From assembly GCA_027577595.1 (NCBI GenBank), contig JANBRJ010000060.1, forward strand, positions 41,002 to 105,001: a DNA stretch of 64,000 bases, read 5' to 3'. A model generated the notes under the pieces. That model worked only from the letters and a program-made list of their open reading frames with translations. It was not told the origin of the DNA and made no database searches. Made by a program: the position numbers and the translations under genes. Below are positions 16,867 to 50,765 of this stretch, piece after piece (positions within the stretch are counted from its first letter, which is position 1; each line of letters opens with the position of its first letter). The stretch is from Coemansia sp. RSA 487 (taxonomy: Eukaryota > Kickxellomycota > Kickxellomycetes > Kickxellales > Kickxellaceae).

Positions 16867-17924
16867 TCTTTTGAGAAAAAAAAACAAATGGTGTCAAAAT
16901 GTTGACAGAGTTTAAATCGTGTAGAAATAATAAAATAAAAAAGTTGCAGAAACAGAAGCTGTAAGCACAGAGCAGCAACACAAAATGAAGGATCAAATGA
17001 AGGTTAAATGTAAACAATGTCGTTAATCGTTATGTAAACAAGAGGCAAAATAAGGTTCAAGGATTGTGGATTTTAGATAAAGAAAAGGGTCATATGAAAC
17101 ATGAAGAAAAAAGCAAATGTCTCGATAGCTTTTTTCCTTTAACGAAGCCATGTCGTTTATAAACCAACAAACTTGTATACCAAGGTAGACAGTGCAGTTT
17201 TTCTCAATGACATTTTATTCTATCTTTTTTGGCCCTTTTGTGTTCCACATTTGGCCTCGGTTCTATTGAAATGTTGTGGCTTTTTATTTCAACCATATAC
17301 ACAAAACATAACCCTTGCAAGCTGTTCGCTCCTTTTCCTCGTTTAGGTTCCCTGCATTACATTGCAAATATGACCTTTATAAGTCACATTGCTTGTCATT
17401 GTTTAAACCCCGTTCGTGAGTGGAAAAATGAGGAGGTATTCAAATATCATTGTCTCGTGCATCATGGCTCTTCAAAGCAAAGCAATCTATACAGCTCTAT
17501 TCCTTATAAAAATAGGAGCAGGGGCAGTTCGGTGCTGCAAAACAGGACATTAAAGCTCAATAAAGGCTTACAAAAAACAATGGAACATTCAATATTTGGA
17601 GTAGCTTATTGTTGGTAGCTGATGCAAGCGAGAATAAAATTGCACACCAACAACAACGAAAAGGAAGCCACCGATCTGCGACTGGTTTATTCATCTCAAG
17701 AAATGCATGACCACCGCCGAATTTGACCGCCGACAGAATCTCCTTGTCGCAAGCGCTTCCGTAAGAGAAGACCGATAGGTTATATACCAAGGAGGCATTA
17801 CTATTGTCCGTACACATGATAGCATTGCATTTTCTTTTCCATATATTTGGAAAGGCGTTTGAGCAAAACTCGACACAAAAGCACTTGGCCTGGCGTCAAT
17901 CAAACCAATAATATAGACGATATA
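16867..17924. other. intergenic region, no gene seen
   Basis: AT-rich, about 1 kb between the coiled-coil gene promoter and the MITE-like element. Short frames only. Confidence 0.55.
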
Positions 17925-18490
17925 CAGTGTTTTGCAAAACTAATTGCGTCGAATAAGAAGGATGTATATGCATCGAATGGTCAAAGGTTTGTGGTGGTGA
18001 CAATGCATTCTGCGTTCCAAGAAAAAGCCGTTTGCGTCGGCTGGCATGGCATATGCGTCAGCGCAAAATGGAAAAACACCAGAGAAAACACAAATGATTA
18101 GTACTGATGCTGATATAGCCAGGTTGTTGAATGCTTCACATAGACCCTTCTTGATGTGTGCCAGCACTGCAGTTGGATTTTTGTTCAAGGTAGTAGTGGT
18201 ATTTCTTTAGGTTGCTAGATTTCATTAGGATCAGTGTTAACTAGCCATATCAAAAGCACAGACAAAGACTGGAAGCCAATCAATTTTAGTATGGAATGAT
18301 AGGCGTGTAGCAAACAGCTCTCCCCACAAAGCTCAGTTTCCGCCTCTTGCTTCCAAGCGCAGATATGACGCCAACTGACGCAAACAACCTTTTCTTGGAG
18401 CGCAAAATGCGCTATCGCCACCACAAACTTTTCATCATTCGACGCGTATACACACCCCTTATTCGACGCAATTAGTTTTGCAAAACACTG
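17925..18490 (-). mobile_element. MITE-like non-autonomous relative of the Fanzor element
   Basis: A 566-bp element bounded by inverted CAGTGTTTTGCAAAAC. Its left arm (17925 to about 18110) matches the reverse complement of the 3' end of the Fanzor element (about 50600-50765), including an identical 20-nt block at 18087-18106. Its right arm (about 18235-18490), read in reverse, matches the Fanzor element's 5' end (47969 to about 48240), including the run CTTGGAAGxAAGAGGCG. It is therefore the same element type in the opposite orientation with the coding part deleted, diverged by scattered point changes. It carries no reading frame of its own. The flanking dinucleotides are TA on the left and CA on the right. 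Confidence 0.85.
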
Positions 18491-19049
18491 CATGTGTAAT
18501 GGGATGCATGTGACATTAAAGTCTTTTATAATATAATTCACAATTGCATGTTTAGCAGGCAATTAGCCCGTCTATTACAATTGTATAATCGAATATGACT
18601 ATTTGACAAAGTCCTACGCTTTCCGTGTGCTGGCAGGCAATCTATAGAATATTCTTGTAAGTTGTGTGGACTCGTGCCAAAGGAACGGCAATCGCCAGAT
18701 CCTAGCCGATTGGAACCACTCAGAACACACAAGGCCAGTTATCCCATCAGCTGGGAATCCAAGAAAAGCGAAATACACCAACTCTTTATTGGGGAGGTTT
18801 TGCCAGCGTTTCCCCAGTTTCTGATTGTGAAGACTTGACTGAATACAGATTTAGCTTTTCACGCAGGATAATTTCTATCTCAAAGATCACCCTCGCCATG
18901 GAGCCAACTTCTCAACTCTCTTTCTCTTCTATAAAGGCTTTTTTTATCCTCGATCCAATACATTTTTTTCCACAGCACATTAAGCTTTACACTTTTTTTT
19001 TGCATCCCAGCATCTTTTAGACATTTTTCATCCTCACTGGCAAGAACAG
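18491..19049. other. intergenic region, no gene seen
   Basis: Sequence between the MITE-like element and the PhnP-like hydrolase. The last 100 bases are pyrimidine-rich, as in a 5' leader. Confidence 0.5.
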
Positions 19050-25225: not shown

Positions 25226-26572
25226 TCAGAGTGTATTCATAAAGCTATCAGCATCCCCACCAGCCCGAATACGCCTAACAACCTTATCATTGTACATATC
25301 CAGAATCGACGTGCTAATCGACTGGCCATCTTCAAGCGAGCTAAAGTTGTCTGCTGAAGTATTGCTTCCCAAATACTGCTTTTCAGCGCTAGCTGTGCTA
25401 GCATTGTCATGTGTTGTACCGGATCCAAAGGACTCTGAGAGTACCATTTTTGGAAGCTTTGTAATACTGTACTCTGAGCCATCCAAGGTATCGTGGCTGC
25501 TTGTAGCGTGTATCTGTCTTGCTGCCAGTTCCCTCCTGATCCCCTTACGCACTTCAGATATAACCTTGGTTACAGCAGGATCAGTAACAAATACAAGAAA
25601 GTTGATGAATGCCATAGCTGGATAGGCGAACCAAGTTAAGTATGTGATCCTAACCATCTTCTGGATGTCCGACTTGTAAGTCATTGTAACTGGATACTGG
25701 ACAATATAGAAGGTCGCAATGAAAATCCACCAGACTATTGGCGCCAAAGGATATAGGGCAATCCGAATACATGCTCTATATACCATTTGGGCTGCCTTGA
25801 GCTGTTCCGCTTCTTTGGCTGATATGGTACGGGGGATAGGACCCTGAGAATCATTTTTTGTGATCAGAAACTCGCGAGTGCTGCTAGATGCTGATTCCAA
25901 TGCCTCTCTGACCTTCCGTTGTTTGCGATAAAGCGTGATTATGACGGATGTCGATGCAATAATGTTGTAAAAAACAAAGATGCTCGGGATAAGCAAGCAT
26001 TGAAAAATGACGTAAACAATGTAGGCAGTTGTCCCATTTGGAACAAGGTTGAACATATCACATACACCTTTAGAGGAGGAAATAGCAACGTAAACCAACG
26101 TGTGGATAGATGCAACTGTGAAGGGAATAATATAGTACAAATATTCTACGTAGCGTGGTAATGGTGTCTGGGACTTGCGATGGAAAACCATTTGCAAGTT
26201 AAACGCAACTGCAGAAGATAAATATATACCAGTTCTGTACGAAGTATAAATAAAAAATGCTGAGGCCAGACACGCTTCTAAAGATTGGGATGTTCTACTC
26301 GCTGCTGATGCTAGACACTGAGCAAAATCACAAACACTAATCGCAAATATAAGTCTTAGCGAGACACGATTGACAAGAGAGCGGCGCCAAAAGAAAACGG
26401 AAACCAAAAAAAGGGCCATCAATAGACTGAGGATTCCAGTAAGTGCTTGTGCCACCGACAACATCCACTTCTTTTCTCCAAGTATTGTTATGATATCGTT
26501 GAGTATTACCTCCGGATCTTCCGGACCCAATGTTATCTCTCTCTTTGCAAAAGTATAAGACTCGAACGACAT
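25226..26572 (-). CDS. seven-transmembrane receptor-like protein (intact copy)
   Basis: A 448-residue protein with seven hydrophobic segments at about residues 38-64, 72-94, 99-133, 140-167, 183-217, 276-302 and 315-342. The loop between segments 5 and 6 is long and basic, and the cytoplasmic tail is about 100 residues, Ser/Thr-rich. This topology fits a fungal GPCR of the cAMP-receptor-like or Git3-like kind, at the cell surface; the ligand is unknown. No signal peptide. Third positions are much more AT-rich than in the housekeeping genes here. A second, broken copy lies inverted at 32831-34173 and the similarity includes the promoter region, so this is a recent duplication. Confidence 0.75.
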   Translation of the reverse strand: MSFESYTFAKREITLGPEDPEVILNDIITILGEKKWMLSVAQALTGILSLLMALFLVSVFFWRRSLVNRVSLRLIFAISVCDFAQCLASAASRTSQSLEACLASAFFIYTSYRTGIYLSSAVAFNLQMVFHRKSQTPLPRYVEYLYYIIPFTVASIHTLVYVAISSSKGVCDMFNLVPNGTTAYIVYVIFQCLLIPSIFVFYNIIASTSVIITLYRKQRKVREALESASSSTREFLITKNDSQGPIPRTISAKEAEQLKAAQMVYRACIRIALYPLAPIVWWIFIATFYIVQYPVTMTYKSDIQKMVRITYLTWFAYPAMAFINFLVFVTDPAVTKVISEVRKGIRRELAARQIHATSSHDTLDGSEYSITKLPKMVLSESFGSGTTHDNASTASAEKQYLGSNTSADNFSSLEDGQSISTSILDMYNDKVVRRIRAGGDADSFMNTL

Positions 26573-27050
26573 TTTTAAGAAGAAAATAATATACTTATAA
26601 TGAAAGCAAACGTATAAAGCCGTAATAGAGTGTATACAGTGCTAATATTCAACATAAAAGTTTGGATAACAAAATAAGTAACAAGCCGTCAACAACAGAA
26701 CTGATGAAGAGAAACAGGATAGTGGGACAGATATAAATGTACGAGCGTTGTCAACATTATTCAATTCTTTCACTTTGTTTAGAGTTTTTGCACAATTAGC
26801 TCTTCGTTGGCATAATTGGGCATTTTTCATTGAGTATAATAATTCTAGCATGTAAGTACCACAATGGAAAATACTTTCTGGTTCATTTGCGATAACAATA
26901 ATTTCACGCCTATTGCACAATATGTCATGTGTACTATTGTTACCATATACATTTTCATATAAAGTAGAGATCACCAGCATAAAAAGGGAGGATCGAGTCA
27001 AAGAAGTGCATTTTCAATTATACAATAAAATGGGTGCTATCGTCAGCTGA
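25226..27050 (-). repeat. arm 1 of a 1.8-kb inverted duplication
   Basis: Covers the intact receptor gene plus about 480 bp upstream. Reverse-complemented, it lines up with 32366-34173 from the receptor stop codon out to about 27050. Beyond the stop codon the copies diverge at once. The non-coding part has many matched blocks (for example around 26573-26660 and 26985-27040). Confidence 0.85.
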
Positions 27051-27925: not shown

Positions 27926-28244
27926 CGTTTTTATTTAAGTACTCGCTTTAATAAAAGTTTAAAAAGTAAAAAAAAAAATTGAACACAAAAGAATAGAAAA
28001 GGAATTGAGTGACTGGATTTGGCTTGAATTTGTTGGACCAAAATCCCTAATGATAACAGGTCAAGCGATAAGTACTGATTTGATCGTTGTTGATTAGTCA
28101 AATCTTTTCTCTTTTTTTGCTTTGATTTGAGCTTTTCGACAGTTCTTTTTTACTTTGTGCTCCCTTCATCAGTGTCAATAGTTTCTTTCTCCTCTTTAAT
28201 TGTGGTTCTTACAAATCCTCTTTTATTATTTTTCATTCTTGCTC
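27926..28244. promoter_or_regulatory. divergent promoter interval between ATP19 and DIS3
   Basis: A 319-bp AT-rich stretch between the two start codons. No clear TATA box is seen. Confidence 0.45.
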
Positions 28245-31200
28245 ATGCTCCGCAACAAGTCATTTGTAAAGCGCACGCGCAAGGGCAACGTTGTCCGCAC
28301 CGTCAAAGAGCACTACCTGCGCGACGATATCTCCTGCGGCTATGAAAAGTGCACCACTGGAGTATGTGAGAATGCACGAGCGGATGCAGAGGAGCAAGGG
28401 AGGATAAGCGGTAATGCGATCAATCCTGCGGCGCCACTTAGTTCAGCTCCGCGTAATTCGGTCGAATGGGGGCCACACTACTTGGTGCCAGACACTAATG
28501 CGTTTGTCAACCAAATCGATATATTCGAACGGCCGATCATCAACAATGTGATTGTTCTTAGCACTGTTCTGGATGAGCTGCGCGGCCTAAGCATTGCTGT
28601 GTACAACCGCGTCCGCACGATCGTTAAGGACTCAGAGCGTCGGTGGTTTGTGTTTTCAAACGAGCACCACAGGGAGACGTTTGTGGACAGACAGCCAAAC
28701 GAGTCGCCGAATGACCGCAACGATAGGGCTATTCGTACCGCTGTTAAGTGGCTAGGCAAGCATCTCGATGGCACATCGATTGCACCAGTGATGGTTACAA
28801 ACGACGAAGACAACCTGCGCAAGGCGTGTGGAGATGGTATACGTGCTTGCAGAATGGATGAGTGTCTGCAGGTTTACGGCGAACATCCAGAGCTTCTCGA
28901 CATGATGGGCAGCGTTAACATCCAGGATCGCAACTCAAGCGATTCAAGCTGGAGCGGATATTCGGACTACATGTCGTCCGTGCAGGTGCAGGCGGGGCTG
29001 AAGTCTGGCGTTCTTCTTCAGGGAACACTGCAGATTGCCCCATATAACTATCTTGAGGGCTCCATATACGCAACTTTCCCCGATGGCAAGGAGCGGCGTG
29101 TTCTTATTGTTGGGCGCGAAAATATGAACCGTGCGATCCAGGGCGATAAAGTCGTTATCCAAATATTGCCAAAGTCAAAGTGGCGCGTGTCTCCAAGCGC
29201 AGCGTTGGTTGATGAAGATGAGGACGTTGTTCCTGACATTAGCACCAAATCCACATCAACTGATTCCAGTTCTGTTGTTCCCAACGCAAGTGTTGAGGAT
29301 GGAAATACTCGTAAACGCGCTCGTACAGCTGGCGGTAATAAAATAAATACAACTAGAAACACTGATGGTGCCACTCCAGCTGTGAACTCTAATGGACCGA
29401 CTCGGGATGAAAACAACTCCGAACCAGAGTTCATTAATCCGGCCAGTGTAGGTGACGATTTATCAGAAGGGGAGCCCACTGGTCGAGTTGTTGGCATTGT
29501 TCGGCGCAACTGGAGATCCTACTGCGCCTTTCTTGATCCAAATTTCTCACACAAGGGCACACGAGCTTCGAATGCACCTATAAATATCAGCGTTTTAGCC
29601 ATGGACCGCAGGATCCCAAAGATCAAAATCCGTACTAGGCAGCTGGACGTTTTGTCAGGCCAACGGTTTGTGGTTGCCATTGATTCATGGCCCAAGGAGT
29701 CGCGCTATCCGCTGGGTCATTTTGTACGGGCGCTGGGCGATGCTGGCGACAAAGCCACCGAGACAGAAGTTCTTTTGCTCGAGCATGACGTACCCTTCCA
29801 ACCATTTACCCAGAACGTGCGTGCTGACTTGCCCACCGAAGGAGCCAAATGGCTTTTCGATCCTATCCGCGATCAATTGGCCTGTGGAAAGCGCCGAGAC
29901 CTGCGCGACCTTGACGTCTGCAGCATCGATCCTCCCGGTTGTACCGATATTGATGATGCGCTCCATGCGTTTGTGCTGCCTAACGGAAACTTCCAAGTCG
30001 GTGTTCATATTGCCGATGTGACAAACTTTGTAAAGCCAAACACTGCGATGGACAAAGAAGCCGCATACCGGTCCACCACTGTTTATTTGGTTGACAAGCG
30101 CATCGACATGCTTCCCGAGCTTTTGGGCACAAATCTCTGTTCGCTTATGTCAAATGTGGATCGGCTGGCATTCTCGTGTATTTGGGAGCTTGATTCGGAG
30201 GCAAACATTGTGGATGTGACATTCCATAAGAGTGTTATCCACTCAAAGGCTTCGCTGTCATATGAGGAAGCACAAAACCGTATTGACGACCCAGCCATGA
30301 AGGACTCGATAACGAACAACATTCGTCTGCTGAACTCGCTTGCCAAGAAGCTGCGTAAGCGCAGAATGGATGCGGGTGCTTTGACGCTGTCCTCACCCGA
30401 AGTGCGCTTCCGACTGGAGAATGACTCACAAGATCCGGTAGATGTAGAGATGAAAGCGCTCAAGGAAACCAATGCGCTGGTCGAAGAATTTATGCTTCTT
30501 GCAAATATCAGCGTTGCACAAAAGATCTATGAGCATTTTCCCGATTCGGCACTTTTGCGGCGTCATCCTGAACCACCGGCGCAGAATTTCGATAACCTTC
30601 AGCATGCGCTCAAGCCCTTGGACATCCAGCTGGAGACAGGGAGCAGTCTGGCGCTGGCTCAGTCGCTTGACAGGGCTGTTTTGCCGACGGACCCTTACTT
30701 TAACAATCTTTTGCGGATCCTGACGACTCGCTGCATGATGCAGGCTCAGTACTTTTGTTCGGGCCTATTCACACCTGAAGAGTTCCGTCACTACGGCTTG
30801 GCATCTCCTATATATACACATTTTACTAGTCCAATCCGTCGCTACGCCGATGTGATGGTTCACCGTCTTTTACATGCGTCCATCGATCGCGACGCTGTGT
30901 ACGGGTCCGAGCTGACCGATAAGGCCAAAATGAACGAGCAATGCGACATTCTTAACCACCGGCACAGAATGGCGCAGCAAGCTGGCAGGTCATCTGTTGA
31001 GCTCTACACGAATCTCTTTTTCAAGGGAAAGACCGTAGAGGAGCCTGGATATGTGACGCAGATACTGCAAAATGGATTCAGTGTGCTTATTCCCAGCTAT
31101 GGCATCGAAGGTATTGTCTATACCACGTCAAAAGATGCCGAGAATGTCGCTGCTGTAATGGATTATGAAAAGGAGTCGCATACACTTGTTTCACTGGACA

Positions 31201-31460
31201 AGCAGTCGATTATTGGTCTGTTCCAACGCGTGCATGTTGTTCTTCAGGTTGACGATAAGCCTGTCAGTGCAAACGTCAGTTCCATGCGTCGCAAGCTCTC
31301 GTTGCAGCTGATTGAACCCCAGATCTCGGGGCTTTCACTAACTGCTGACCAGCTTAAAGCCTTGAGAGCTGCAGCGAACTCTAATGCACAGAGCAACCAG
31401 GATGATGAGAAAATCGTTGAAATGGTTACAAAACACCCTGAGCAGATTCGTAACGTTTGA
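28245..31460 (+). CDS. DIS3: exosome ribonuclease DIS3/RRP44
   Basis: A 1071-residue protein from the ATG at 28245; the open frame starts earlier only at a TTG. It is the catalytic subunit of the RNA exosome, with 3'-5' exonuclease and endonuclease activity in nucleus and cytoplasm. Layout: the CR3 cysteine motif (LRDDISCGYEKCTTGVC, residues about 25-43), PIN domain with VPDTNAFVNQIDIFE (Asp83) to about residue 210, cold-shock domains with a low-complexity insert (about 330-410), the RNB domain with SIDPPGCTDIDDALHA (Asp562, Asp568, Asp570, Asp571), FTSPIRRYADVMVHRLLHA, and a C-terminal S1 domain. All four RNB acidic residues are kept. Length is slightly above yeast Rrp44 (1001) because of the acidic insert. 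Single exon. Confidence 0.96.
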   Translation: MLRNKSFVKRTRKGNVVRTVKEHYLRDDISCGYEKCTTGVCENARADAEEQGRISGNAINPAAPLSSAPRNSVEWGPHYLVPDTNAFVNQIDIFERPIINNVIVLSTVLDELRGLSIAVYNRVRTIVKDSERRWFVFSNEHHRETFVDRQPNESPNDRNDRAIRTAVKWLGKHLDGTSIAPVMVTNDEDNLRKACGDGIRACRMDECLQVYGEHPELLDMMGSVNIQDRNSSDSSWSGYSDYMSSVQVQAGLKSGVLLQGTLQIAPYNYLEGSIYATFPDGKERRVLIVGRENMNRAIQGDKVVIQILPKSKWRVSPSAALVDEDEDVVPDISTKSTSTDSSSVVPNASVEDGNTRKRARTAGGNKINTTRNTDGATPAVNSNGPTRDENNSEPEFINPASVGDDLSEGEPTGRVVGIVRRNWRSYCAFLDPNFSHKGTRASNAPINISVLAMDRRIPKIKIRTRQLDVLSGQRFVVAIDSWPKESRYPLGHFVRALGDAGDKATETEVLLLEHDVPFQPFTQNVRADLPTEGAKWLFDPIRDQLACGKRRDLRDLDVCSIDPPGCTDIDDALHAFVLPNGNFQVGVHIADVTNFVKPNTAMDKEAAYRSTTVYLVDKRIDMLPELLGTNLCSLMSNVDRLAFSCIWELDSEANIVDVTFHKSVIHSKASLSYEEAQNRIDDPAMKDSITNNIRLLNSLAKKLRKRRMDAGALTLSSPEVRFRLENDSQDPVDVEMKALKETNALVEEFMLLANISVAQKIYEHFPDSALLRRHPEPPAQNFDNLQHALKPLDIQLETGSSLALAQSLDRAVLPTDPYFNNLLRILTTRCMMQAQYFCSGLFTPEEFRHYGLASPIYTHFTSPIRRYADVMVHRLLHASIDRDAVYGSELTDKAKMNEQCDILNHRHRMAQQAGRSSVELYTNLFFKGKTVEEPGYVTQILQNGFSVLIPSYGIEGIVYTTSKDAENVAAVMDYEKESHTLVSLDKQSIIGLFQRVHVVLQVDDKPVSANVSSMRRKLSLQLIEPQISGLSLTADQLKALRAAANSNAQSNQDDEKIVEMVTKHPEQIRNV

Positions 31461-32365: not shown

Positions 32366-34173
32366 GCAGCTGGCAATAGCACCAATTTTATTGTATAATT
32401 GAAAATGCACTTCTTTGATTCGATTCTCCCTTTTATGCTGGTAATCTACTTTATATGCAAATGTAAATTGTATCAATAGTGCACATGATATATTGTGCAA
32501 TAAATATGAAAGCATTGTTATCGCAAATAAATTATTGCGTTTTTAACCATTCACTAGTATTCGATTCAAAGAAAAAGACTCAACTATGCCAATAAAGAGC
32601 TAATTGTGTAAGAAACCCCTTTAAACAAACAAGGTAAAGCTTGAGTACTGTTGACAACGCTCGTACATTTATATCCGTCCCGCTAACCTATCTCTTTGCC
32701 AATGCTGTTATTAACGTTGTGCTACTTATTTTGTCACCCAAACTTTTCTGCTGAATATTAGCACTGTATACGCTCTATTACGGCTTTATATATTTGCTTT
32801 CATTATAAGTATATTATTTTCTTCTTAAAAATGTCGTTCGAGTCTTATACTTTTGCAAAGAGGAAGATAGCGTTGGGTCCGGAAGATCCGGGGGTAATAT
32901 TCGACGATGTCATAACAATACTTGGAGAAAAGAAGTGGATGTTGTCGGTGGCACAAGCACTTACTGGAATCCTTAGTCTATTGATGGCCCTTTTTTGGTT
33001 TCCGTTTTCTTTTGGTGTCGCTCTCTTGTCAATCGTGTCTCGCTAAGACTTATATTTGCAATTAGTGTTTGTGATTTTGCTCAGTGTCTAGCATCAGCAG
33101 CGAGTAGAACATCCCAATCTTTAGAAGCATGTCTGACAGCACAATTTTTTCTTTACACTTCGTACAGATTTGGCATATATTTATCTTCTGCAGTTGCGTT
33201 TAACTTGCAAATGATTTTCCATTGCAAGTCCCAGACACCATTACCACGCTATATTGAATATATGTACTATATTATTCCCTTCGCAGTTGCATCTATCCAT
33301 ACGTTAGTTTACGTTGCTATTTCCCCCTCTAAAGGTGTATGTGATTTGTTTTACCTTGTTCTAACTGGAACGACTACTTATATTGTTTACGCTATTTGTG
33401 TATACATGCTTATTCCGAGCATCTTTATATTCTACAATATTATTGCATCGACATCCGTCATTATCACGCTTTATCGCAAACAACGGAAGATCAGAGAGGC
33501 ATTGGAATCAGCATCGAGCAACACTCGCGAGTTTCTGGTCACACAAAAGGATACTCAGGGGCCTATTTCCTGTGCCATATCAATCAAAGAAGCGGAACAG
33601 CTCAAGGCAGCCCAAATGGTATATAGAGCATGTATTCGAATTGCCCTATATCCTTTGGCGCCAATAATCTGGTGGATTTTTATTGCGACCTTCTATATTG
33701 TCCAGTATCCAGTTACAATGACTTACAAGTCGGACATCCAGAAGATGGTTAGGATCACATACTTAACTTGGTTCGCCTATCCAGCTATGGCATTCATCAA
33801 CTTTCTTGTATTTGTTACTGATCCTGCTGTAACCAAGGTTATATCTGAAGTGCGTAAGGAGATCAGGAGGAAACTGGCAGCAAGACGGATACATGCTACA
33901 AGCAGCCACGATACCTTGGATGGTTCAGAGTACAGCATCACAAAGCTTCCAAAAGTGGCACTCTCAGAGACCTTTGGATCCGGTACGACACATGACAATA
34001 CTGGCGCAGCTAGCACTGAAAAGCAACATTTGGGAAGCAATACTTCAGCAGATAACTTTAGTTCGCTTGAGGATGGCCAGTCGATTAGCACGTCGATTCT
34101 AGATATGTACAATAAGGTTATTAGGCGTATTCGGGCTGGTGGGGATACTGATAGCTTTATGGATACACTTTAG
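32366..34173 (+). repeat. arm 2 of the 1.8-kb inverted duplication
   Basis: The reverse-orientation partner of 25226-27050. It includes about 465 bp upstream of the receptor copy and the whole frameshifted gene. The spacer between the arms is about 5.3 kb with three genes. Confidence 0.85.
32831..34173 (+). pseudogene. frameshifted second copy of the seven-transmembrane receptor gene
   Basis: Aligns end to end with the intact copy at 25226-26572. The first 55 or so codons (from ATG 32831) are in one frame; the frame then shifts at a run of T residues (32991-32996), which has six T where the intact copy has seven. Downstream, the other frame is open to the stop at 34171-34173 and keeps all remaining membrane segments and the tail, with many amino-acid changes and one deleted codon near the end (MYNKV versus MYNDKV). 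There is only this one break, so it is either a very young pseudogene or a sequencing/assembly slip at a homopolymer. A TATATA-like element precedes it near 32788. Confidence 0.75.
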
Positions 34174-35839: not shown

Positions 35840-38800
35840 TTAGAGCGGAGAATGGAGCCCAAGCTTTGTTTTGAACTCGAGCTTGGCGAGCTTCTGGAGC
35901 CGCGTCCATTTCTTTTTGTCGTGGAGCTTGCACAGGTCCTGCAGAGGCAGAAGTACCACGGGTCCTGCAAACGCCAGCACATACGTGTACCAACGCACGT
36001 GCGCAACAGCGGCATCGCCAAAAGCCAGAAGCAGCGCAGCTAGCGCAAAGGTCAGAACCAGGCTGACCGCCGACCCCACCACCCACGCAACATTGCGCAC
36101 AGGCACGAACTCCAGCCATGTGCGCGTGCGGAACATCAGCGTCGACGATACGCATGCGCAGTGGAACGCAAAAGCTACCATTGCGTACGTTTGCGCGGCC
36201 AGCACCGCCCACTGGTCGCGGGGGCTCAGCAGCAGCCAGTCCTTGCGGCCCAGCACTGACGACAGATGGCCCACCTCGGGCGACCCGTCCAGCAGCTTCG
36301 CCAGCGCCGTCACGTAAACGACCAGCGTGAGAGCCACCGGCGGGAGCATGCGGATCGCCGCGTACACAGAGAACCGCGGCAAGTCGCTCATATGCGCGTG
36401 GTTCCTGAGCGGCATCGTCGACATGATGTTCTCGTCGTGCGGCGCAAACAGCAGCGTGATACCCAGCAGCGGCGCAACCACCCACAAGATCCACAGAACC
36501 ATGTATCCGGGCAGCACTGGCGGAAGCAGACACAGCGCCGCCACAAAGTTCACCCCCGCAAGCGCCAAGCACGTGCACGCAAGGAAGATCGCCGTCTGCT
36601 GCACGCACCCGACCAGCCGCCGTGCCTCGCTGATCACTTGCATCAGCATGTATAGGCTGGTGTCGTGCTGCAGGAACAGCGGGCACGGGATGCACGTGAG
36701 CGCTGCGCCCAGAGCGTACTGTGTGACAAGCGCCCCCGACGTCGAGATCGATCCGTCGTTGGCCATGTCGTGCCCCGACAGCACCGCCGACCGGAGCGCT
36801 ACGGCGCTGGCCTCGGCCGAATCGATGGCCGCCGCCGCATCGTCGCCTGGAACTGCATCCACTGGGTGCTGGGCCATTGCTGCGCCCAACGAGCCCTGCC
36901 CGCCGCCGTAGAACACGCGGTTGAAGTGCGGGATCGGCTCCACGCCAACCGCCAGGTCTGCCGCCGCAAACGTCAGCGTGTTCGAGTCCTTCAGCGCGCT
37001 GCCGATGCAGCACACCACGTCGCCATACTCCTGCGATATCTTGATCATCTCACGAGTCGACGCAGGCGTGCACTCAGCAAACAGCGAGATCTGCAGCGGA
37101 ATGTCGTCAACCTCCTCCAGGTGCTGCCGAATGTTCTCTATTCCGCGCGGCAACCGTGCTTTGATGTCATGGTCCTCGATATACCCGTCGCCTCGGATCC
37201 CATCGGTGGCAGAGCTCAGCAGGATGCACGTGTTCCAGTCCGTCTCCAGTCCAAGTCGCTCGGCAAACGCCTTGCTTTGTCGCCCGCTTGCTCTTGAAAA
37301 GTACACGAACCGGATCCCCGCAATGTCCAGATCCTCGATAAAGTCGCACACATCGGTCTTTGGGTCGTATGCAAACGTGGCCAGCCCAAGGAATATCTGC
37401 TCCGAGACCGCGTCGCGCAGCATATCTTCTTCGGAATACAGGTGCTCCAATTGTGCTTTCGAGTAGTCGAGTCCCAGCGTCTCGTCAGACCGCATGGGGC
37501 GCGAGAACTTTGCCTTGGACCGCAGCAGAGCCTTGCGCGCTTCCTCGGTCAGGTGGTCAGGCAGATCGTCCAATGAGCTGGAATGGGTCGCAGCATCCTG
37601 GCTGTCACCATCGCTGAATCCGAATCTTTCGTGACCTCCATCGGGATCGTACTGGGCAGTTTGCTCGTTAGCATCGTTTTCGTTGTTGTTGCTGCGGCTG
37701 CTGTTTACGCTGTCGGCTGTCTGGCTCTTTGAGGCAGAACGGTCTTTTACATCTGGCTCTTCGCTTAAAGTAGGCTTGTCCATTGCCACAACGAGATCTT
37801 TGTCCTTGATACCAACGGTTGTTTCTACTGGAGCAGTTTTCGATAAAACAGATGTCCCGGCGTCCTCCACGCTGCCTGTACTCTCTGCCCATACAAGGCT
37901 AGCCGAGCTCTGCTCATCCAAAGCAGCCTGGAGAGCGGCTTTGCTCAGATGCAGATCGATGAACCTGCCCTGTGCATTCGGTGTGTCCGCTGTGCTGGCT
38001 TCCCAGCCAGGCCATTTGATGGCATCGGTGTCGACGGACAGCGGGCGGTATGAGAACGCCAGACACTGGAGGTCCTGCTGCAGCGCGTTCAAGTACAGCG
38101 AGTAGTACATTGCTATCGTGTGGTCGTCGAGCGGCCGAATAGCAGATCCGTCAAAGTAGTCCAGACACATGCCCAGCACAAGATCCACGTTGCCGTCGGT
38201 CAGCATCTGTAGCGTTCCCGGCCCGTCTTCCGTCTGCATCACTGTCGACGTGAAGCTCGCTGCGCAAAACACATCCTTGGCAACCAGCGCATCGGTGGCC
38301 TCGTGGAACGGCGCAAACACGTCGATCTCTTTCAGCTTCGAGTAGCGGCTCAGATCCTCGTTGGTGAAGCCAATGGCCTTTCCGATCCGGCACAGACACG
38401 TGTCCTGCGATGGCAATACCTTCCCGTGGCGGTGCATGTGGTTGTGCCTCCGGTGCGTGACGTTCATGTTGCCCTTGCCGAGTTTGTGCGCCGACGTGCT
38501 GAGACTGCAGTCCAGCCCCAGGGGTCGCAGGCTCGGCAGGAACTTCTCCCACCCCTCGTCGATGATAAACGTCCTGATCTCTGTGCCCACCTGCTGCTCG
38601 CCCACATCAAGGATGGCATAGTCATCGCCTGCATCGGGAACCACGATTTGCTCGGGCGTGCAAAACGGCTCTGCTATCGTGCCCTCCTTGTCGATGCTGC
38701 AAATAACTGTGATGTTTCCCAGCGTCTCGGTCAAGTTGCTCGACCGCGACAGGGTGCGGAAGTCGCAGTTCCACCACAGCCACCGCATGCGGTCGATGAT

Positions 38801-40166
38801 CGCGCCAATGCCAACCGTCACGTCCTTGGTCGGCGGCAGCGCCTCCACGTCAAACTCGTCAATATTGTCCGTGTCCTCATACTCTGTTTTGCTGCGCTGC
38901 AGCGTGTCGAACAGAACCACCTCGCACGAGTTGGTGAAGATCCGCGAAACGATCCACAGCACTGGCCACAGCACTGTGCACGCAAACGGAAACATCACAT
39001 ACACGGTTTTGCCGATAATAACCTCAACACCCATTCCGTAGTGCGACTCTTGCTTGGCGCTCACCACGCCGTATATTACAATGTTGGCAATCAGCGCGGT
39101 TATGCAGAGCGCCGGCATAATACGTAGGGCGCATAGCCGGATGACCACGCGCATCTGGTTCTGCAGCACAGACCGTCCGGTACGCTGGTGATGGAGCGAG
39201 ATCTGCACTAGATGGTTGCTCAGCGGCGTGGCCCGGACGTGGAACAGTATCCTGCCGGTCAGCGTGGAATGGCCGGCCACAGACGGATCCCACGCGTTGC
39301 GGTCGCCTGATCCGCCGCTTCTCTTGGGAATGCACGCCGACGGGTGCCATGTGCGCATAGTCTCGGATGTGAACTTTTGTCCGCGGTCCAGCGTGAATTT
39401 GGTCTCCCCGTTTAGTGCCTTGTCTACCGTGCGCAGCGATATCAGGCAGGGTGCTGCCTCCCCGTACGCAAGAGCAATCGTGTCTCCCTCGACAAGCAGT
39501 AGCGTGGGCACGTCTCGCCATACGCCGTCGCGCAGCACGGTGTACGTTGTCACGGTTGGTAGTTGCGGCGTCCGAAGATCGGCGTATATGCCAGTCCATC
39601 CGCGGATCTCCTGCGAGATCGCACGCAGCCGCATGTCCAGCTCCCGCATCTCCAGCTTTGACTCGTGCACTATGACCCAGTACGTCACTAGGACCGATAC
39701 CAGAAGCAGTGCTGCCTCAACCACCGATCCAATCCCACGCGTCTGCTTCGGATCTCCTTTGGCGAGCGTGTACCCGCCATCTACCAGAAGAAGAGCAATC
39801 GTGGCGATTGTCACTCCTAGAATCGCCCACAATGACCGCGATCGTCGGTCAAAGTGCGGCGGAATCAGAACTCTTGTGTGGTCTGAGTCAAGAAGCTCCA
39901 ACAATTGACTACAGCAGACTGGATCACAATATAACCCCTGCGCACTTTAATACCTTGTAGCCTCAAGGAACCAATGCGTTCACAAGCAACGTTATCACAA
40001 CATATTGAACTTACTTTTTGGCTGCGGCTGTTGATAGACCAACCGCTGGCTTTATACTCACTGACTGTGTTTCTACATTGTCATTGTGTGCTGACGGCTT
40101 ATTAGACTCCTTTTCTTCTGCTTTGGCCGTATGCAACCTATCGTTCAGTGGTTGTGTGTCAGCCAT
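35840..40166 (-). CDS. TMEM94-like P-type ATPase-related membrane protein (two exons)
   Basis: Spliced model: exon 1 40015-40166, exon 2 35840-39908, intron gtaagt...tgtag, phase 2, giving 1406 residues. Exon 1 (MADTQPLNDRLHTAKAEEKE...) is not visible as a long frame; without it exon 2 has no ATG at its start. Layout: paired membrane segments near residues 75-145, an actuator-like domain with LLVEGDTIALAYGE, two more membrane segments (about 320-400), then NITVICSIDKEGTIAEP in the place of the P-type DKTGT motif, a long nucleotide-domain-like region and a C-terminal block of about six membrane segments. The motif keeps the Asp and Lys but not Thr-Gly-Thr in order, and the late hinge reads CCIGSALKDSNTLTFAAADLAVG, as in the animal TMEM94 (ER Mg2+ ATPase-like) family. 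An acidic, Ser-rich insert is at about 700-800. Transport activity is not shown by sequence. Confidence 0.82.
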
Positions 40167-40441: not shown

Positions 40442-42466
40442 TCACTTGTAATATTTTTTGACGAGTTTTTGCAAATGCTTGATACCGGCCGGCTTCTTTT
40501 TGTGGATATTTACAAGTGAGCTTTTGTTGGAGCTGCCGGTTCCCTTTGCCGATCCTGCCCCACCATGTTCTTGCTTTTGCCTCTTCCCTCTGCCGGCCTG
40601 TGTCGGCTGGTACTTGTCAGCAACAAGCTTCTCGATGTCCTCTGCGCGTAAATCGTCCATGTTTTCAGCAGTCGCAACGCTGTTGGGGCCAGGTGTTTCA
40701 TTGCCTCGCTCTATATTATTGTGCTCAGAACCCTGCGGCTGCTGTTCCTCGGCCGCGGTATCACCAGTCTGACCCTGAGGACGACCAAACTCGTCACGCG
40801 GGATTACAACTCCGTGGAAGGGACACTTGACGAGATCTCTTCGTGGACAGAGCTTTCCGCTCTTGAGTGGGGCACGACATGCCTTGATCTCACGCTTGTC
40901 TGAATCGGTCTTTGCACTGCCGGTGTGTGAATGCAAATCTTTGAAGTAAACCGTGCGCATCCGCATTCGCCTTGCAGCAGCTTCTGACACAATCGGCTCC
41001 TCGTGCGCACTTCCCAAAAAGCGGTGTCTGATTTCTAGCCCTGACGTGTTTGCGCTAATGTCGCCGCTGTTCCAGTACATCAGATCTGTGTCGTAGCTGA
41101 CGACAGGTGCAGTTTCGCGCAGCTTGTCCTCGATTGGGTTGCTGCTCTCTGGCTTTTGTTCGCTTCCGCTATTATCGCTGTTGTTATTGGAGGCAATTCC
41201 CTTTCTGGGGTGAAGCTTTGCTGGTCGGTGGCGCAGGATCTTTGGATCAACAACAGTCGGGTCAGATGCTAATCCAGACTCGCCAAGAAGTGCAAACACA
41301 GAGTTCCGTTTGCGCTTGTTTTGGACTGCGTTTGCCTTTTGATCTTTTCTGCCATTCTTTTGTCGAATGTCGGTAAATGGCACGTCCTCGAATTCGTCGT
41401 CGCTGGATTCTTCGTGCTCTTTCGGCTCCATGTACGAAAAATCAACCCCCAGATCCTTGCACTTGGAGACTATACCAGATAATCTACTGTTCAGGTGACG
41501 CACGTTTGCCTTCAGCTCGGATACACCAATGTCAATATCGTTGTCAATCTGATCCAGCCTGGCCATCCATGTATAGACCAGGGGCTGGTGAATCTGAAGA
41601 CATACTTTCAGATGATCACGGACTACATCATAAATGGCTGCGTTCTCCTCAGTCTCTTCAACGTCAAGGACCTTTTCCGGGTCAAACTCGATATGAATGG
41701 CATGCCTGTTGGCTGCCATTACAGCCATTATCTCGTCCAAATCGTCATCGTTATTATCGGTCTCATTGCGACCAATTTGAGGTTCATCCAAGTTTTGTTC
41801 AACAGGCTTGCTTTCAATGCCAAACATTTCTGCAAGATCCGGAACAAGCGCTTCGAAGCAGCTGTTCAAGCACACAAGTGTCATCTCCATCCCTCGCCTC
41901 TTGTCCAGGAAATCTGCCAAAACGGCTACCAGCGTTCGCCGCATATATTCCCGCCGATTAGCGACAAACGTCTCGTGTCTGCGCTTAATTCGCTCCGGGT
42001 CTTTCATCCTGTATGCCTTTGCGGCTGCTCTGAAATCAACATGTTCTGTGAATCTAAGGTACCTAAGCGCATAAACCAAGCGCTGGTACGCAAAGCCAAA
42101 CCGCTCAACCCACGCATACAGATACTCTGCAGTCAAAGCCTTGAGCCTCTTGGCATGGGTACTGGGCGGTGGCAGCTTTTTTTGGTAGGCGCCCATAGTC
42201 AGTGTAATAAACTGCGGCAGCTCTTCGATTACAAGCAGCCGGAACTGGTGTGACCGTTTGAATAGCTCGTTCATCGCCTGTAGCGCAGACACGCGGACCT
42301 GCGAATGGCCCTTGTGCAGTGCCTTAAAAAGCTGTGCAAACGCTTCAACTATGGTTGCCCCGCTGCGGTCGTCCCGGCACATCTGCTTGAGCTCGCTGAG
42401 CTTGTCCGTATCCAAGGACTCTAGCCCAGACGTGGTAAGCTCGGTCACAAGCGTTTCGAGCGCCAT
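40442..42466 (-). CDS. UVSSA: UV-stimulated scaffold protein A (UVSSA) homologue
   Basis: 674 residues from the ATG at 42466 (MALETLVTELTTSGLESL). The open frame continues upstream through the U1 snRNA, which is not coding. UVSSA acts in transcription-coupled nucleotide excision repair, bringing TFIIH to stalled RNA polymerase II. Features: an N-terminal VHS-like helical domain (about residues 1-150, with VSALQAMNELFKRSHQFRLLV), a middle coiled region, an acidic stretch with EHEESSDDEFEDVPF, which resembles the TFIIH-p62-binding acidic segment of human UVSSA, and the C-terminal conserved domain with a Zn-binding pattern CRAPLKSGKLCPRRDLVKCPFHG and IPRDEFGRP. The very end is Lys-rich (KHLQKLVKKYYK). 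Full-length family layout; yeasts such as S. cerevisiae lack this gene. Confidence 0.92.
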   Translation of the reverse strand: MALETLVTELTTSGLESLDTDKLSELKQMCRDDRSGATIVEAFAQLFKALHKGHSQVRVSALQAMNELFKRSHQFRLLVIEELPQFITLTMGAYQKKLPPPSTHAKRLKALTAEYLYAWVERFGFAYQRLVYALRYLRFTEHVDFRAAAKAYRMKDPERIKRRHETFVANRREYMRRTLVAVLADFLDKRRGMEMTLVCLNSCFEALVPDLAEMFGIESKPVEQNLDEPQIGRNETDNNDDDLDEIMAVMAANRHAIHIEFDPEKVLDVEETEENAAIYDVVRDHLKVCLQIHQPLVYTWMARLDQIDNDIDIGVSELKANVRHLNSRLSGIVSKCKDLGVDFSYMEPKEHEESSDDEFEDVPFTDIRQKNGRKDQKANAVQNKRKRNSVFALLGESGLASDPTVVDPKILRHRPAKLHPRKGIASNNNSDNSGSEQKPESSNPIEDKLRETAPVVSYDTDLMYWNSGDISANTSGLEIRHRFLGSAHEEPIVSEAAARRMRMRTVYFKDLHSHTGSAKTDSDKREIKACRAPLKSGKLCPRRDLVKCPFHGVVIPRDEFGRPQGQTGDTAAEEQQPQGSEHNNIERGNETPGPNSVATAENMDDLRAEDIEKLVADKYQPTQAGRGKRQKQEHGGAGSAKGTGSSNKSSLVNIHKKKPAGIKHLQKLVKKYYK

Positions 42467-42644
42467 TATTAATTCATAATGCTCATAGAATATAATAGAG
42501 TATTTTAAAAGAAGAAAAACACAGAAAAGAAAAAAAGGTGGGGGAAAGAGAACACCGCAGCTAACAGAAAGCATATGTAGCATCACGTGATCATATAATG
42601 CATAGCCCACAATACCTTGTACAACCGAGCGTAACGCCATAGGG

Positions 42645-42652
42645 TATAAATA
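42645..42652 (+). promoter_or_regulatory. TATA box of the U1 snRNA gene
   Basis: TATAAATA, 44 bp before the RNA start at 42689. This is somewhat further than in a typical protein gene, as in several fungal snRNA genes. Confidence 0.55.
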
Positions 42653-42688
42653 GCCGGACCTGGCCTGCAACCAGAGACGAGAAACCTC

Positions 42689-42847
42689 ATACTTACCTAG
42701 GCTTGGGGGCATGTGATCAAGAAGGCGTGCTCTCCAGTCGGACTGCCGGGCATTGCACAAGGTCCTGGCGGGCCTTCTGGGAATGGGTTTTTAAAACCCA
42801 TCTCCGGGCTGTAATTTTTTGATGTGGAGCCAATTCTTTTTGGCTCC
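42689..42847 (+). ncRNA. U1 spliceosomal snRNA
   Basis: About 159 nt, close to the 164 nt of human U1. The first ten bases are ATACTTACCT, the invariant 5' splice-site pairing sequence. Next comes stem-loop I with the loop TGATCAAGAAGGC (human TGATCACGAAGG, bound by U1-70K), then stem-loop II with CATTGCAC in its loop (bound by U1A), a third hairpin (ATGGGTTTT/AAAACCCAT) near 42784-42801, a Sm-type site AATTTTTTG at 42813-42821, and a final perfect hairpin GGAGCCAA/TTGGCTCC at 42826-42847. The TATA box and lack of any coding frame on this strand agree. It starts 223 bp from the UVSSA start codon, in the opposite direction. It is noteworthy because no tRNA or rRNA lies nearby. Confidence 0.95.
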
Positions 42848-43063
42848 GAAAACCATCCACACACCACCAAAACAAACCGAAAGCACACACTGGCTAGAGC
42901 TAGCACTGTAGCACATCCATCGCTAACTTATTTGCGAGAGGAGTATCTATCAAAGGATGTGCTCGCTTGGACCTGTGTTACTTCAAACTCGATGTGCCAA
43001 TTTAGATGCATTGTATGAGAGTGCTAAAAGTAAATACAAGGACTGCTATTTCTAAAAAAAGCG

Positions 43064-47968: not shown

Positions 47969-48110
47969 CTATATTTTGCAAAACTAATTGCGTTGAATGA
48001 GGATGTATACGTGTCGAATGGTGAAAGGTTTGCGGTAGTGATAACGCATTTTGCGTTTCAAGAAAAAGTCATTTGCGCAGGCGTGGCAAGTCGTTTGCGT
48101 CGGTTGGCAT
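47969..48110 (+). repeat. left terminal inverted repeat of the Fanzor element
   Basis: Starts CTATATTTTGCAAAACTAAT. It is related over its whole length to the right end, and continues as 5'-specific sequence (to about 48240) that is shared with the MITE-like copy. Confidence 0.82.
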
Positions 48111-48300
48111 TACATTTTTGCTTGGAAGAAAGAGGCGCAAACTGAGCTTTGTGAAGAAAACTGTTCGCTACACACCTATTATTTCACACTAACATGGATT
48201 GGCTTTCCTTTGACATTTTATTTCTGCTAGTAACACCAAATACACCTTTCAACGCATATACTATATTAGTTATCTGCTCTTGTATTCTTACCCATTCTCA

Positions 48301-50460
48301 ATGGACAATGAGAATATGTCAGATAAAGGGATTCGTGTTATAAAGTGTCCCCTAAAATCCCTGGTAAATGACAGAAATGACATTACCAAGGTAAACGACT
48401 ATGTCGTAGTGGCCAACACAGCCTCTGCACACATGTATGGGCTGGCTACTCACAAGCAGTTCGATCCCTCTGTGTACCTGGCGAAGAGGTTTTTTGGTGA
48501 GGTATTCCTGCACCTCACCAAGCGGAAAGCCAGGCCAAATGTCAAGGCTGAAATCCAGGAGTACAGGAGGATCATACGCAAGCACCTGGATGCGTACAAG
48601 GAGGCTGCTGGCATCACAGAGTTTGCTATAGCCAACCCAAACCAGACAGCACAGTTTGAGGCAGCAAGAATTTACACTGCATACGCGAATAATATACAGA
48701 CCAGGTTTGGTCAGTATCTTCGGCGTGCAATAAATGCTCTGCTGAAAACTCGGGAGCGTAAGAGGGACCTTGAGGAGGCAATGAAGGGCAGAACAGCAGA
48801 TGAGATAAAGGAAGCGTATAAAGACCAGATTTGGAAACCCGGACGAGAGTTGAAAGAGGCGATAAAGCACCGCGACACTGTTCTTCCAGTTATTACTGTG
48901 GGCGACAAGAACATTGGGGACATGCTTGAACCTGTGTTGACAGCATACGACAATGGCTACAAGTTTGAGGAGAAAGGCATTTATTACGATATAAAAGCTC
49001 ATCCGGAAAAGCATTTCAAAGCATTCTATCGCTTGGCAGTGTTTTTTGAGACAAATAACTACAGGTCTTTCCAGTGTTTCCCGTTGCGGAAGTCATTTGT
49101 GCCAATGGACATCGAGATTGATACCAAGATATTATGTCGAAGTGTAATGGACTGGGATTACAATTCGAAGTCTCCCATTGAAATCTATTGGTATAGGCTG
49201 TTCAATGAACAGTTGAAGGTGCTACGGATAAGACACGGCTTCAGGTTCTACGGCACGATACAAACCGATGGTGTGTCAGTGTCTGTGATCAAAAAGACTG
49301 CAATAGCCAAAGAAAAAGGCGGCTGGAAAGCAGAGAAAAGGGACGCTGAAGCAAATGCTGCTATAGAGGCCAGCAGAGGTGGACCGACCGCCCCAGTCGG
49401 GAGCGCAGCTACCGACTCATTGCCGGAGGACCATCCCAAGAAGTCCAGGAGGCCCAGGAAGCGAGAAAAGCTAGAAGAAAAGAAGTCAGGCGAGTTCACA
49501 TATATCCACGAGCTCTCACCAGAGCAGCTGGCCAACATGGAAAATCCGATTTTCATGGATCCAGGTCGCCAGGATATTGTCTTTGGCATGACGTATGAGA
49601 GCACCTCTGAGGAGAAAGCTCTTTTCCGATACACACGGAGCCAGAAGGCCAAAGAAACCCGGACAACCCGTTACCGCAAGCTAAGGGAAGATGCCAAGAA
49701 AGAGCACCCAGACAGCAACGAGATCAAGGCTGCCGAGGCTAGATTGGCTACTTTTTCGTGCACATCGATATTGCCAGGTAAATATGAGCAATATGTCAGG
49801 ACGCGTGCTGCTGTTTGGCCAGTGCTGAGTAAATTCTACACGAACACCATGACCACCAGCAAAGATCGGAACAGCCATCAGCCAATTCATCGAAAGCTTC
49901 GGCAATCTGCCCACATCAAGCAGCAACAAGCCGATGAGCAGCTAGCAAAAAGCATTCGGGTGACATGCGACGATGAAAAACCCACTGTGATCCTAGGCAA
50001 TTGGAGTGCGCCAATGGCTCGCTACCATGAGCCTATACGGGGGGTCGGATTCCGGCGAATGCTGAGGAAGAAAGGGTGCCAAGTCTATCTTATTGACGAA
50101 TTCAGAACATCAAAGACTTGCCCGAACTGCCTCACCGGCACTCTCAAGACGTTCCTGAAAGTGCCCAACCCCCGCCCCTATCAACGAAAGAAGACGAAAG
50201 AAGTCCTCTGCCACGGTCTCCTTAAGTGCACCAACGAACTATGTATGGGGCCCGTGGAAGTGGATAGTGTTTTGACTCCTCGTTCACGCATGTACAATCG
50301 AGATCTCGCAGCCGTTCTCAACTTCAGGCATATTTTCCATGGCCTTCGCGACCACGGTAAGACTCCAGAGCGCTTTTGTTGCAGTCAGCTTGCTGCCGTT
50401 GCTACCACCGATGAACAGCAGCCCAAGAAGAAAAGGAAGACGGCGAGAACGAAAAAATAA
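48301..50460 (+). CDS. Fanzor RNA-guided nuclease-like protein (eukaryotic TnpB homologue)
   Basis: 719 residues from the ATG at 48301; the frame upstream starts only at a TTG. Layout: an N-terminal helical region (about 1-260), a wedge-like middle, a basic disordered linker (about 355-405, KKSRRPRKREKLEEKK), then a split RuvC nuclease. RuvC-I: FMDPGRQDIVFGM with Asp420 and Asp425. The RuvC-II strand reads VILGNWSAP (Asn567-Trp568), where bacterial TnpB has Glu; instead LIDEFRTSKTC places Asp599-Glu600 just before the zinc ribbon. Zinc ribbon: Cys607, Cys610, Cys643, Cys648. RuvC-III: YNRDLAAVLN with Asp668 and Asn674. The C-terminus ends in PKKKRKTARTKK, a classical nuclear localisation signal. 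By family knowledge, Fanzors use a guide RNA from the element's 3' end to cut DNA; activity here is inference. The gene is intact. Confidence 0.92.
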   Translation: MDNENMSDKGIRVIKCPLKSLVNDRNDITKVNDYVVVANTASAHMYGLATHKQFDPSVYLAKRFFGEVFLHLTKRKARPNVKAEIQEYRRIIRKHLDAYKEAAGITEFAIANPNQTAQFEAARIYTAYANNIQTRFGQYLRRAINALLKTRERKRDLEEAMKGRTADEIKEAYKDQIWKPGRELKEAIKHRDTVLPVITVGDKNIGDMLEPVLTAYDNGYKFEEKGIYYDIKAHPEKHFKAFYRLAVFFETNNYRSFQCFPLRKSFVPMDIEIDTKILCRSVMDWDYNSKSPIEIYWYRLFNEQLKVLRIRHGFRFYGTIQTDGVSVSVIKKTAIAKEKGGWKAEKRDAEANAAIEASRGGPTAPVGSAATDSLPEDHPKKSRRPRKREKLEEKKSGEFTYIHELSPEQLANMENPIFMDPGRQDIVFGMTYESTSEEKALFRYTRSQKAKETRTTRYRKLREDAKKEHPDSNEIKAAEARLATFSCTSILPGKYEQYVRTRAAVWPVLSKFYTNTMTTSKDRNSHQPIHRKLRQSAHIKQQQADEQLAKSIRVTCDDEKPTVILGNWSAPMARYHEPIRGVGFRRMLRKKGCQVYLIDEFRTSKTCPNCLTGTLKTFLKVPNPRPYQRKKTKEVLCHGLLKCTNELCMGPVEVDSVLTPRSRMYNRDLAAVLNFRHIFHGLRDHGKTPERFCCSQLAAVATTDEQQPKKKRKTARTKK

Positions 50461-50765
50461 CAGCTACCACAAAATTCAGCCAAGGTTATAGCCGCGGCAA
50501 ATCCTAGTTCTAGGAATCCTAGTTCTAGGACAGAATGCTGTCTCTTTTGCAGGTAGGTGCTCGAATGAGAGCCGAGGATATAAACATCTGTGACTGCTTC
50601 TAGACAACAGTACTAATCATTTGTGTTCTCTCTTGTGTATTTTCCTGTTTTGCACCGACGCATATGCCACGCCAACCGACGCAAACAACTTTTTCTTGGA
50701 ACTCAATCCATTATCACCACCGTAAACTTTTCACCATTCGACGCAACTAGTTTTGCAAAATACAG
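50461..50765 (+). ncRNA. candidate guide (omega) RNA locus at the 3' end of the Fanzor element
   Basis: 305 bp between the Fanzor stop codon and the right terminus. It holds two exact tandem copies of a 15-nt unit (50501-50515, 50516-50530), each folding into TCCTAG-TT-CTAGGA. Further on, a 20-nt block (50608-50627) is identical in the MITE-like copy despite divergence around it. In known Fanzor and TnpB elements the guide RNA is transcribed from this position and runs across the right end into flanking DNA; the exact ends cannot be set from sequence alone. Confidence 0.4.
50652..50765 (-). repeat. right terminal inverted repeat of the Fanzor element
   Basis: Inverted partner of 47969-48110. 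It lacks about 20 bp after GCGTCGAAT and keeps the shared GTTTGCGTCGGTTGGC block. Confidence 0.82.

Follow-up and report, generated by a model that had tools for sequence, protein, structure and literature searches.

An intact Fanzor1 gene between inverted repeats, with a gene-less relative nearby, in Coemansia sp. RSA 487

Among the closest described systems is that of Spizellomyces punctatus, in which the element Spu-1 holds a single Fanzor1 open reading frame, encoding SpuFz1 (PDB 8gkh), between inverted repeats of 30 bp. The published account (PMC10432273) reports 42 full or partial Fanzor loci in this organism together with 134 gene-less 'ghosts' of about 550 nt that have the same ends, and describes the Fanzor and ghost ends as similar but distinct, the omega-RNA as running through the right repeat, and the TAM of SpuFz1 as CATA. 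A second system is PpFz1 of Parasitella parasitica, a Fanzor1 with solved structures (PDB 9cf0-9cf3) and shown activity, for which DNA cutting in vitro with an ATN TAM is reported (PMC11423790). The same report describes an insertion in RuvC, termed FRI, which binds cyclophilin and is given there as found only in Parasitella and Rhizopus. Finally, Fanzor1-only elements of Rhizopus, Phycomyces, and Mucor are described with MuDR-like ends and 9-bp duplications, and the mucoralean elements ROr-4, PBl-3, and MCi-4 are reported to carry Fanzor1 without a transposase of their own between inverted ends, presumably being moved in trans (PMC3627910).

We analyzed a stretch of 64,000 nt from Coemansia sp. 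RSA 487 (hereafter the window) and found in it one Fanzor1 gene within an element with inverted ends and, about 30 kb away, a shorter relative of that element lacking the gene (Table 1). In S. punctatus, too, Fanzor elements are described as accompanied by gene-less ghosts (PMC10432273). We consider it very probable that the larger element is a non-autonomous DNA transposon whose single cargo gene encodes an RNA-guided DNA endonuclease, a Fanzor1 of the same type as PpFz1 and SpuFz1.

Table 1. Features of the Fanzor1 element and its ghost copy (window coordinates)
Feature	Position	Strand	Basis or remark
Fanzor1 element, tip to tip	47969..50765	+	2,797 bp; inverted arms, tip-motif count, alignment with ghost copy
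Left terminal inverted repeat	47969..48115	+	inverted arms, alignments with ghost
Fanzor1 gene, single open frame, 719 aa	48301..50460	+	ORF list, translation, PDB matches
Asp420 codon, RuvC-I, equivalent to SpuFz1 D383	49558..49560	+	alignment
Glu600 codon, displaced RuvC-II glutamate, equivalent to SpuFz1 E541	50098..50100	+	alignment
Zinc ribbon, Cys607/Cys610/Cys643/Cys648 codons	50119..50244	+	invariant alignment columns
Asp668 codon, RuvC-III, equivalent to SpuFz1 D606	50302..50304	+	alignment
C-terminal basic tail PKKKRKTARTKK, residues 708-719	50422..50457	+	SV40-type NLS by sequence
Right-end segment common with ghost	50606..50765	+	sharp start at about 50606; candidate omega-RNA region
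Right terminal inverted repeat	50664..50765	+	inverted arms, alignments with ghost
Gene-less ghost copy, 566 bp	17925..18490	-	BLAST, alignments, tips

An initial annotation had described the gene as a single intact frame encoding a Fanzor. The frame was indeed unbroken: the element contains a stop-free run of 748 codons, whereas the longest runs in 300 base shuffles averaged 117 codons and did not exceed 209. When the protein was searched with phmmer against 177,635 distinct PDB sequences, three passed E 10, the best being PpFz1 (1.2e-93), followed by SpuFz1 (1.6e-40) and by an unrelated splicing factor (0.31), so that the family call held and could be narrowed to Fanzor1. Moreover, a profile of the query, PpFz1, and SpuFz1, which recovers the latter two by construction, also reached in the PDB the Fanzor1 of Guillardia theta, itself not part of the profile, at 3.7e-18. 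PpFz1 and SpuFz1, the two nearest relatives of solved structure, both come from fungi. The phmmer match to PpFz1 took in query residues 40-336, 380-518, and 530-692. Identity to PpFz1 was 33% by BLASTP against its printed partial sequence (218 of 661 positions) and 37% by MAFFT over the parts printed by HMMER, over which identity to SpuFz1 was 28%. The long homology to Fanzor1 ranked above any to Fanzor2, TnpB, or Cas12 among the solved-structure sequences that formed the comparison and, on sequence, the protein is a Fanzor1 of the PpFz1 and SpuFz1 kind.

The alignment placed Asp420 and Asp668, the two RuvC aspartates of the initial annotation, opposite D383 and D606 of SpuFz1, and added a third metal-binding acid that had been overlooked, Glu600, opposite E541. 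In SpuFz1 these three acids, together with N385, are reported to hold magnesium ions (PMC10432273); the position of N385 is taken by Gly422 in the query and by glycine in PpFz1 as well. The active-site motifs DPGR, LIDEFRTS, and NRD are the same as in PpFz1. The zinc ribbon, likewise noted previously, is of the C4 type; its four cysteines follow Glu600, precede Asp668, and are invariant in the three sequences, as is T322-D323-G324, the TDG motif that Fanzor1s are described as having in their WED domain (PMC10711439). According to the same source, a displaced RuvC glutamate is common to Fanzor1, Fanzor2, and some TnpBs, and its combination with a DPG motif to Fanzor2 and some TnpBs; the DPG-type RuvC-I motif and displaced glutamate seen here therefore do not separate Fanzor1 from these.

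The sole Pfam match was to the Cas12f1-like TNB zinc ribbon, below threshold (20.8 bits versus a cut-off of 26.3), and could be read in favor of a TnpB, Fanzor2, or Cas12-like protein rather than a Fanzor1. We regard this as scarcely credible, given that the Fanzors matched in the PDB are Fanzor1s, with long matched stretches in the case of PpFz1, that the TDG motif of the Fanzor1 WED domain is present (PMC10711439), and that no TnpB or Cas12 chain in the PDB was recovered at E 10 with the sequence or at E 1 with the profile. The NCBIfam scan of the protein gave no match, and an AlphaFold2 model predicted from the single sequence, without an alignment, had a mean pLDDT of 35.8 and was unusable.

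The query and PpFz1 differ in several regions. Between two of the matched blocks, 11 query residues (519-529) stood against 109 unmatched residues of the PpFz1 chain (987-1095), and we infer that this stretch of about 110 residues in PpFz1, which the query lacks, is the FRI insertion. Because FRI is reported only from Parasitella and Rhizopus (PMC11423790), its absence would be the usual state. Also distinguishing the query from PpFz1 are a low-complexity, charged insert of about 46 residues ahead of RuvC-I and a basic tail that continues past the aligned region. The tail is the segment that had been annotated as a classical nuclear localization signal, a description that its sequence supports, at least in appearance. 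The core of the SV40 nuclear signal is PKKKRK, and by the NLS consensus the tail is a putative signal of this type.

The gene adds to the known Fanzor1s an intact relative of PpFz1 that has its own basic tail and apparently lacks the FRI insertion. Nothing tested sets the element apart as a new kind, and it leaves the knowledge of Fanzors unchanged; the protein is nonetheless a sensible choice for assay as an RNA-guided nuclease.

We also searched for relatives of the protein in other collections. A protein-pattern search of viral contigs, which hangs on a few short peptides, returned no pattern matches, while a three-row alignment run against viral contigs returned 40 pattern matches with no relatives among them. 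The search of genome contigs returned 374 pattern matches, again with no relatives, and tblastn of the Fanzor protein against phages gave no match. These scans used a few short peptides or collections of prokaryotes and viruses, and therefore say little about fungi.

The gene had been placed in a 2.8-kb element with matching inverted ends. The element starts with CTATATTTTGCAAAAC and finishes with GTTTTGCAAAATACAG, with ...GATA preceding it and CAATTG... following it. Its ends form inverted repeats, with four paired arms (I1-I4; 27-38 nt, 85-90%). The 19-base tip motif, with up to three mismatches, occurred at four sites in the window versus 0.08 expected, a count that none of 100 shuffles reached; these four sites are the two ends of the Fanzor1 element and the two ends of the ghost copy. 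The inverted ends are thus real, and their matching is imperfect, 89 of 104 positions being identical (86%) with 45 gap columns. Two stretches of the left end, of 21 and 22 bp, are missing from the right end. The first is present in both ghost ends and was therefore lost from the right end of the Fanzor1 element, where 21-24 bp common to the other three ends are absent. The second, of about 22 bp near 48069-48090, is in none of the other three ends, and so was either gained by the left end or kept there alone. The site of the loss lies at 50736-50745 and, in the right end of the ghost, the counterpart of the lost segment is flanked by the short direct repeats ATTCGATGCA and ATTCGACGCA.

Within the element, the Fanzor frame leaves 332 bp before it and 305 bp after it, which is too little room for a transposase gene, and the other frames of at least 80 aa that lie wholly inside are antisense to the Fanzor gene. 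With inverted ends and a second copy, the carrier is a eukaryotic transposon of the inverted-end type, not an IS607 element. Two matches to the tip pattern in viral contigs (L001 and L002) were set aside as chance, the common part extending little beyond the 21-23 base tip and no Fanzor being present in the 7 kb of each.

The ghost copy, which the initial annotation did not include, was exposed by BLAST of the element against the window, in which a relative appeared in inverted orientation at about 17922-18493, with E values of 2e-44 for the left end and 2e-37 for the right. In the orientation of the Fanzor1 element, it runs from a left end at 18490 to a right end at 17925. No stop-free run in it exceeds 91 codons, and the Fanzor1 element is the single coding Fanzor copy in the window. 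In length and lack of a gene, it resembles the ghosts of S. punctatus and, as there, the ends of Fanzor element and ghost are similar but distinct, although the ends here exceed 100 bp, compared with 30 bp in Spu-1 (PMC10432273).

Alignment of the two copies showed 179 of 218 positions identical at the left end and 138 of 158 at the right, with nine indel events over both ends. In total, 59 of 376 sites differ (15.7%), 46 of them by transitions; for these counts the shared regions on each side were set by hand from BLAST and the alignments, with boundaries one base short of the tips for the Fanzor element and one to two bases beyond them for the ghost, allowing an error of a few bases.

The ends and flanks of both copies were then considered with respect to the class of the carrier. 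The outer tips of all four ends share the consensus C(A/T)(A/G)T(A/G)TTTTGC, and each end has T at the second base beyond the tip, followed by A or G. On the forward strand, the dinucleotides bordering each copy are TA at one end and CA at the opposite end, which makes a TA target of the Tc1/mariner type, with one changed base each, possible. Target duplications of 2-12 bp, with shifts of up to 8 bases, did not rise above chance at either copy, 61% of 500 random place pairs equalling the result for each element, in a scan that has no power for duplications of 2-3 bp, the length of a TA target included. The carrier might instead be of the MuDR type, with a 9-bp target duplication. Ends of more than 100 bp would suit such a carrier, as would the mucoralean origin of the nearest solved relative and the published mucoralean Fanzor1-only elements with MuDR-like ends (PMC3627910), to which we liken the element by description. 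However, the 9-bp duplications reported for ROr-4, PBl-3, and MCi-4 have no counterpart at either copy here, in a search that would miss a strongly decayed duplication with several changed bases, and all four ends have the TA-like T followed by A or G outside the tip. On balance, we regard a MuDR-type carrier as possible but less likely than not.

By analogy with SpuFz1 as described (PMC10432273), the right terminal inverted repeat most likely supplies the 3′ portion of the omega-RNA, which probably overlaps the right end. RNA folds predicted for four right-end stretches did not stand out from shuffled sequences (z of -0.64, 0.56, 1.52, and -0.13). Nor was the right end significantly better conserved between the two copies than the left (138/158 versus 179/218; Fisher p 0.20), which an omega-RNA under selection might have led one to expect. 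On the other side of the element, the left flanks, in Fanzor orientation, read ATA at the Fanzor1 element and ATG at the ghost. Both fit the ATN TAM of PpFz1 (PMC11423790), and suggest ATN as the candidate TAM here, as distinct from the CATA of SpuFz1 (PMC10432273), from two flanks and a pattern noticed post hoc. Under a chance model, AT at both left flanks has a probability of 0.4%, for places chosen after they had been seen. The 15 bases beyond the dinucleotide at each right end, taken as candidate guides, had no second match in the window with up to two mismatches.

The loss of 21-24 bp from the right end falls within the presumed omega-RNA, and the segment persists at the other three ends of the two copies. 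One reading would therefore have the Fanzor1 copy stranded or decaying, its frame still open and its working RNP gone because the right end, and with it the omega-RNA, is damaged; the lack of a stable predicted RNA fold and of a clean target duplication at the element point the same way. We find this reading somewhat doubtful, since all catalytic and zinc residues are kept, since a difference between Fanzor and ghost ends is likewise described in S. punctatus, for which omega-RNA production is reported (PMC10432273), and since 719 codons are free of stops and frameshifts in spite of a non-coding end divergence of 15.7%, which predicts several if the gene is unselected.

That prediction was quantified for an unselected frame. 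With half of the divergence assigned to this branch, the mean was 4.6 stops and 1.25% of 2,000 runs had none, and with a quarter of the divergence the mean was 2.3 stops and 10% of runs had none. The frame-shifting indels expected without selection numbered about 17 and 9, respectively; these forecasts draw on one ghost, an assumed split of the divergence, and two thirds of indels taken as frame-shifting. The open frame, beside ends whose divergence predicts stops, thus indicates either that selection kept the gene or that it was copied recently from a maintained gene. The initial annotation had inferred a recent copy from the unbroken frame. The suggestion that accompanied it, of a possibly active copy, is compatible with these forecasts. 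The ends do not support recency, because they have diverged with indels, no target duplication rises above chance in the scan described above, and they differ from those of the ghost at the level given above; altogether, end differences within and between the two copies amount to about 13-18%, with indels.

An open frame beside diverged ends, and a single coding copy in the window, might also be expected of a Fanzor domesticated by the host, with the gene retained for host use and the element immobile. Yet both ends are still recognizable, a ghost sharing those ends is present at a distance of 30 kb, and a transposon can hold an open frame without being domesticated, so that we regard it as very unlikely.

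Under the favored reading, that of a non-autonomous transposon with a Fanzor1 nuclease as cargo, the omega-RNA would be transcribed through the right end, with a guide of the last 15 or so bases derived from the flank just beyond 50765. The RNP would enter the nucleus by means of the C-terminal basic tail and cut guide-matched DNA adjoining a short TAM. Cutting of an empty site, or of an allele without the element, followed by repair, could then allow the element to persist or spread, while the transposase needed for movement itself would have to come from a gene elsewhere and might have a TA-like target site.

Because the right end is retained in ghosts, these may make guide RNAs of their own. 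This leads to a more speculative and rather unlikely extension, in which the Fanzor1 RNP serves gene-less ghosts in trans: their right ends would give rise to guide RNAs for their own insertion sites, such that dispersed guides share one nuclease, here a PpFz1 relative that lacks the cyclophilin-binding domain and brings an SV40-like nuclear signal of its own. The presence of a ghost near the Fanzor1 element makes the question of guides in trans testable.

Elsewhere in the window, the only Rfam match at gathering score was a U1 spliceosomal RNA at 42689-42849 (+), which covered model positions 1-166 of 166 of RF00003 with 74.2 bits (gathering 69.5). Two genes for receptor-like multi-helix proteins, at 25226-26641 (-) and 32977-34173 (+), were in inverted orientation and appeared very similar by eye in their translations, and the former had no Pfam match at 1e-5. 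Between them was a Dis3/Rrp44-like gene (28200-31460; RNB domain, 1.5e-106). An open frame of 1,368 aa at 35840-39946 (-) had no Pfam match at 1e-5, and may be a relative of P-type ATPases or TMEM94. Finally, a gene at 40442-42790 (-) resembled UVSSA, a transcription-coupled repair factor, with matches to UVSSA_N (8e-32) and DUF2043 (1.2e-25).
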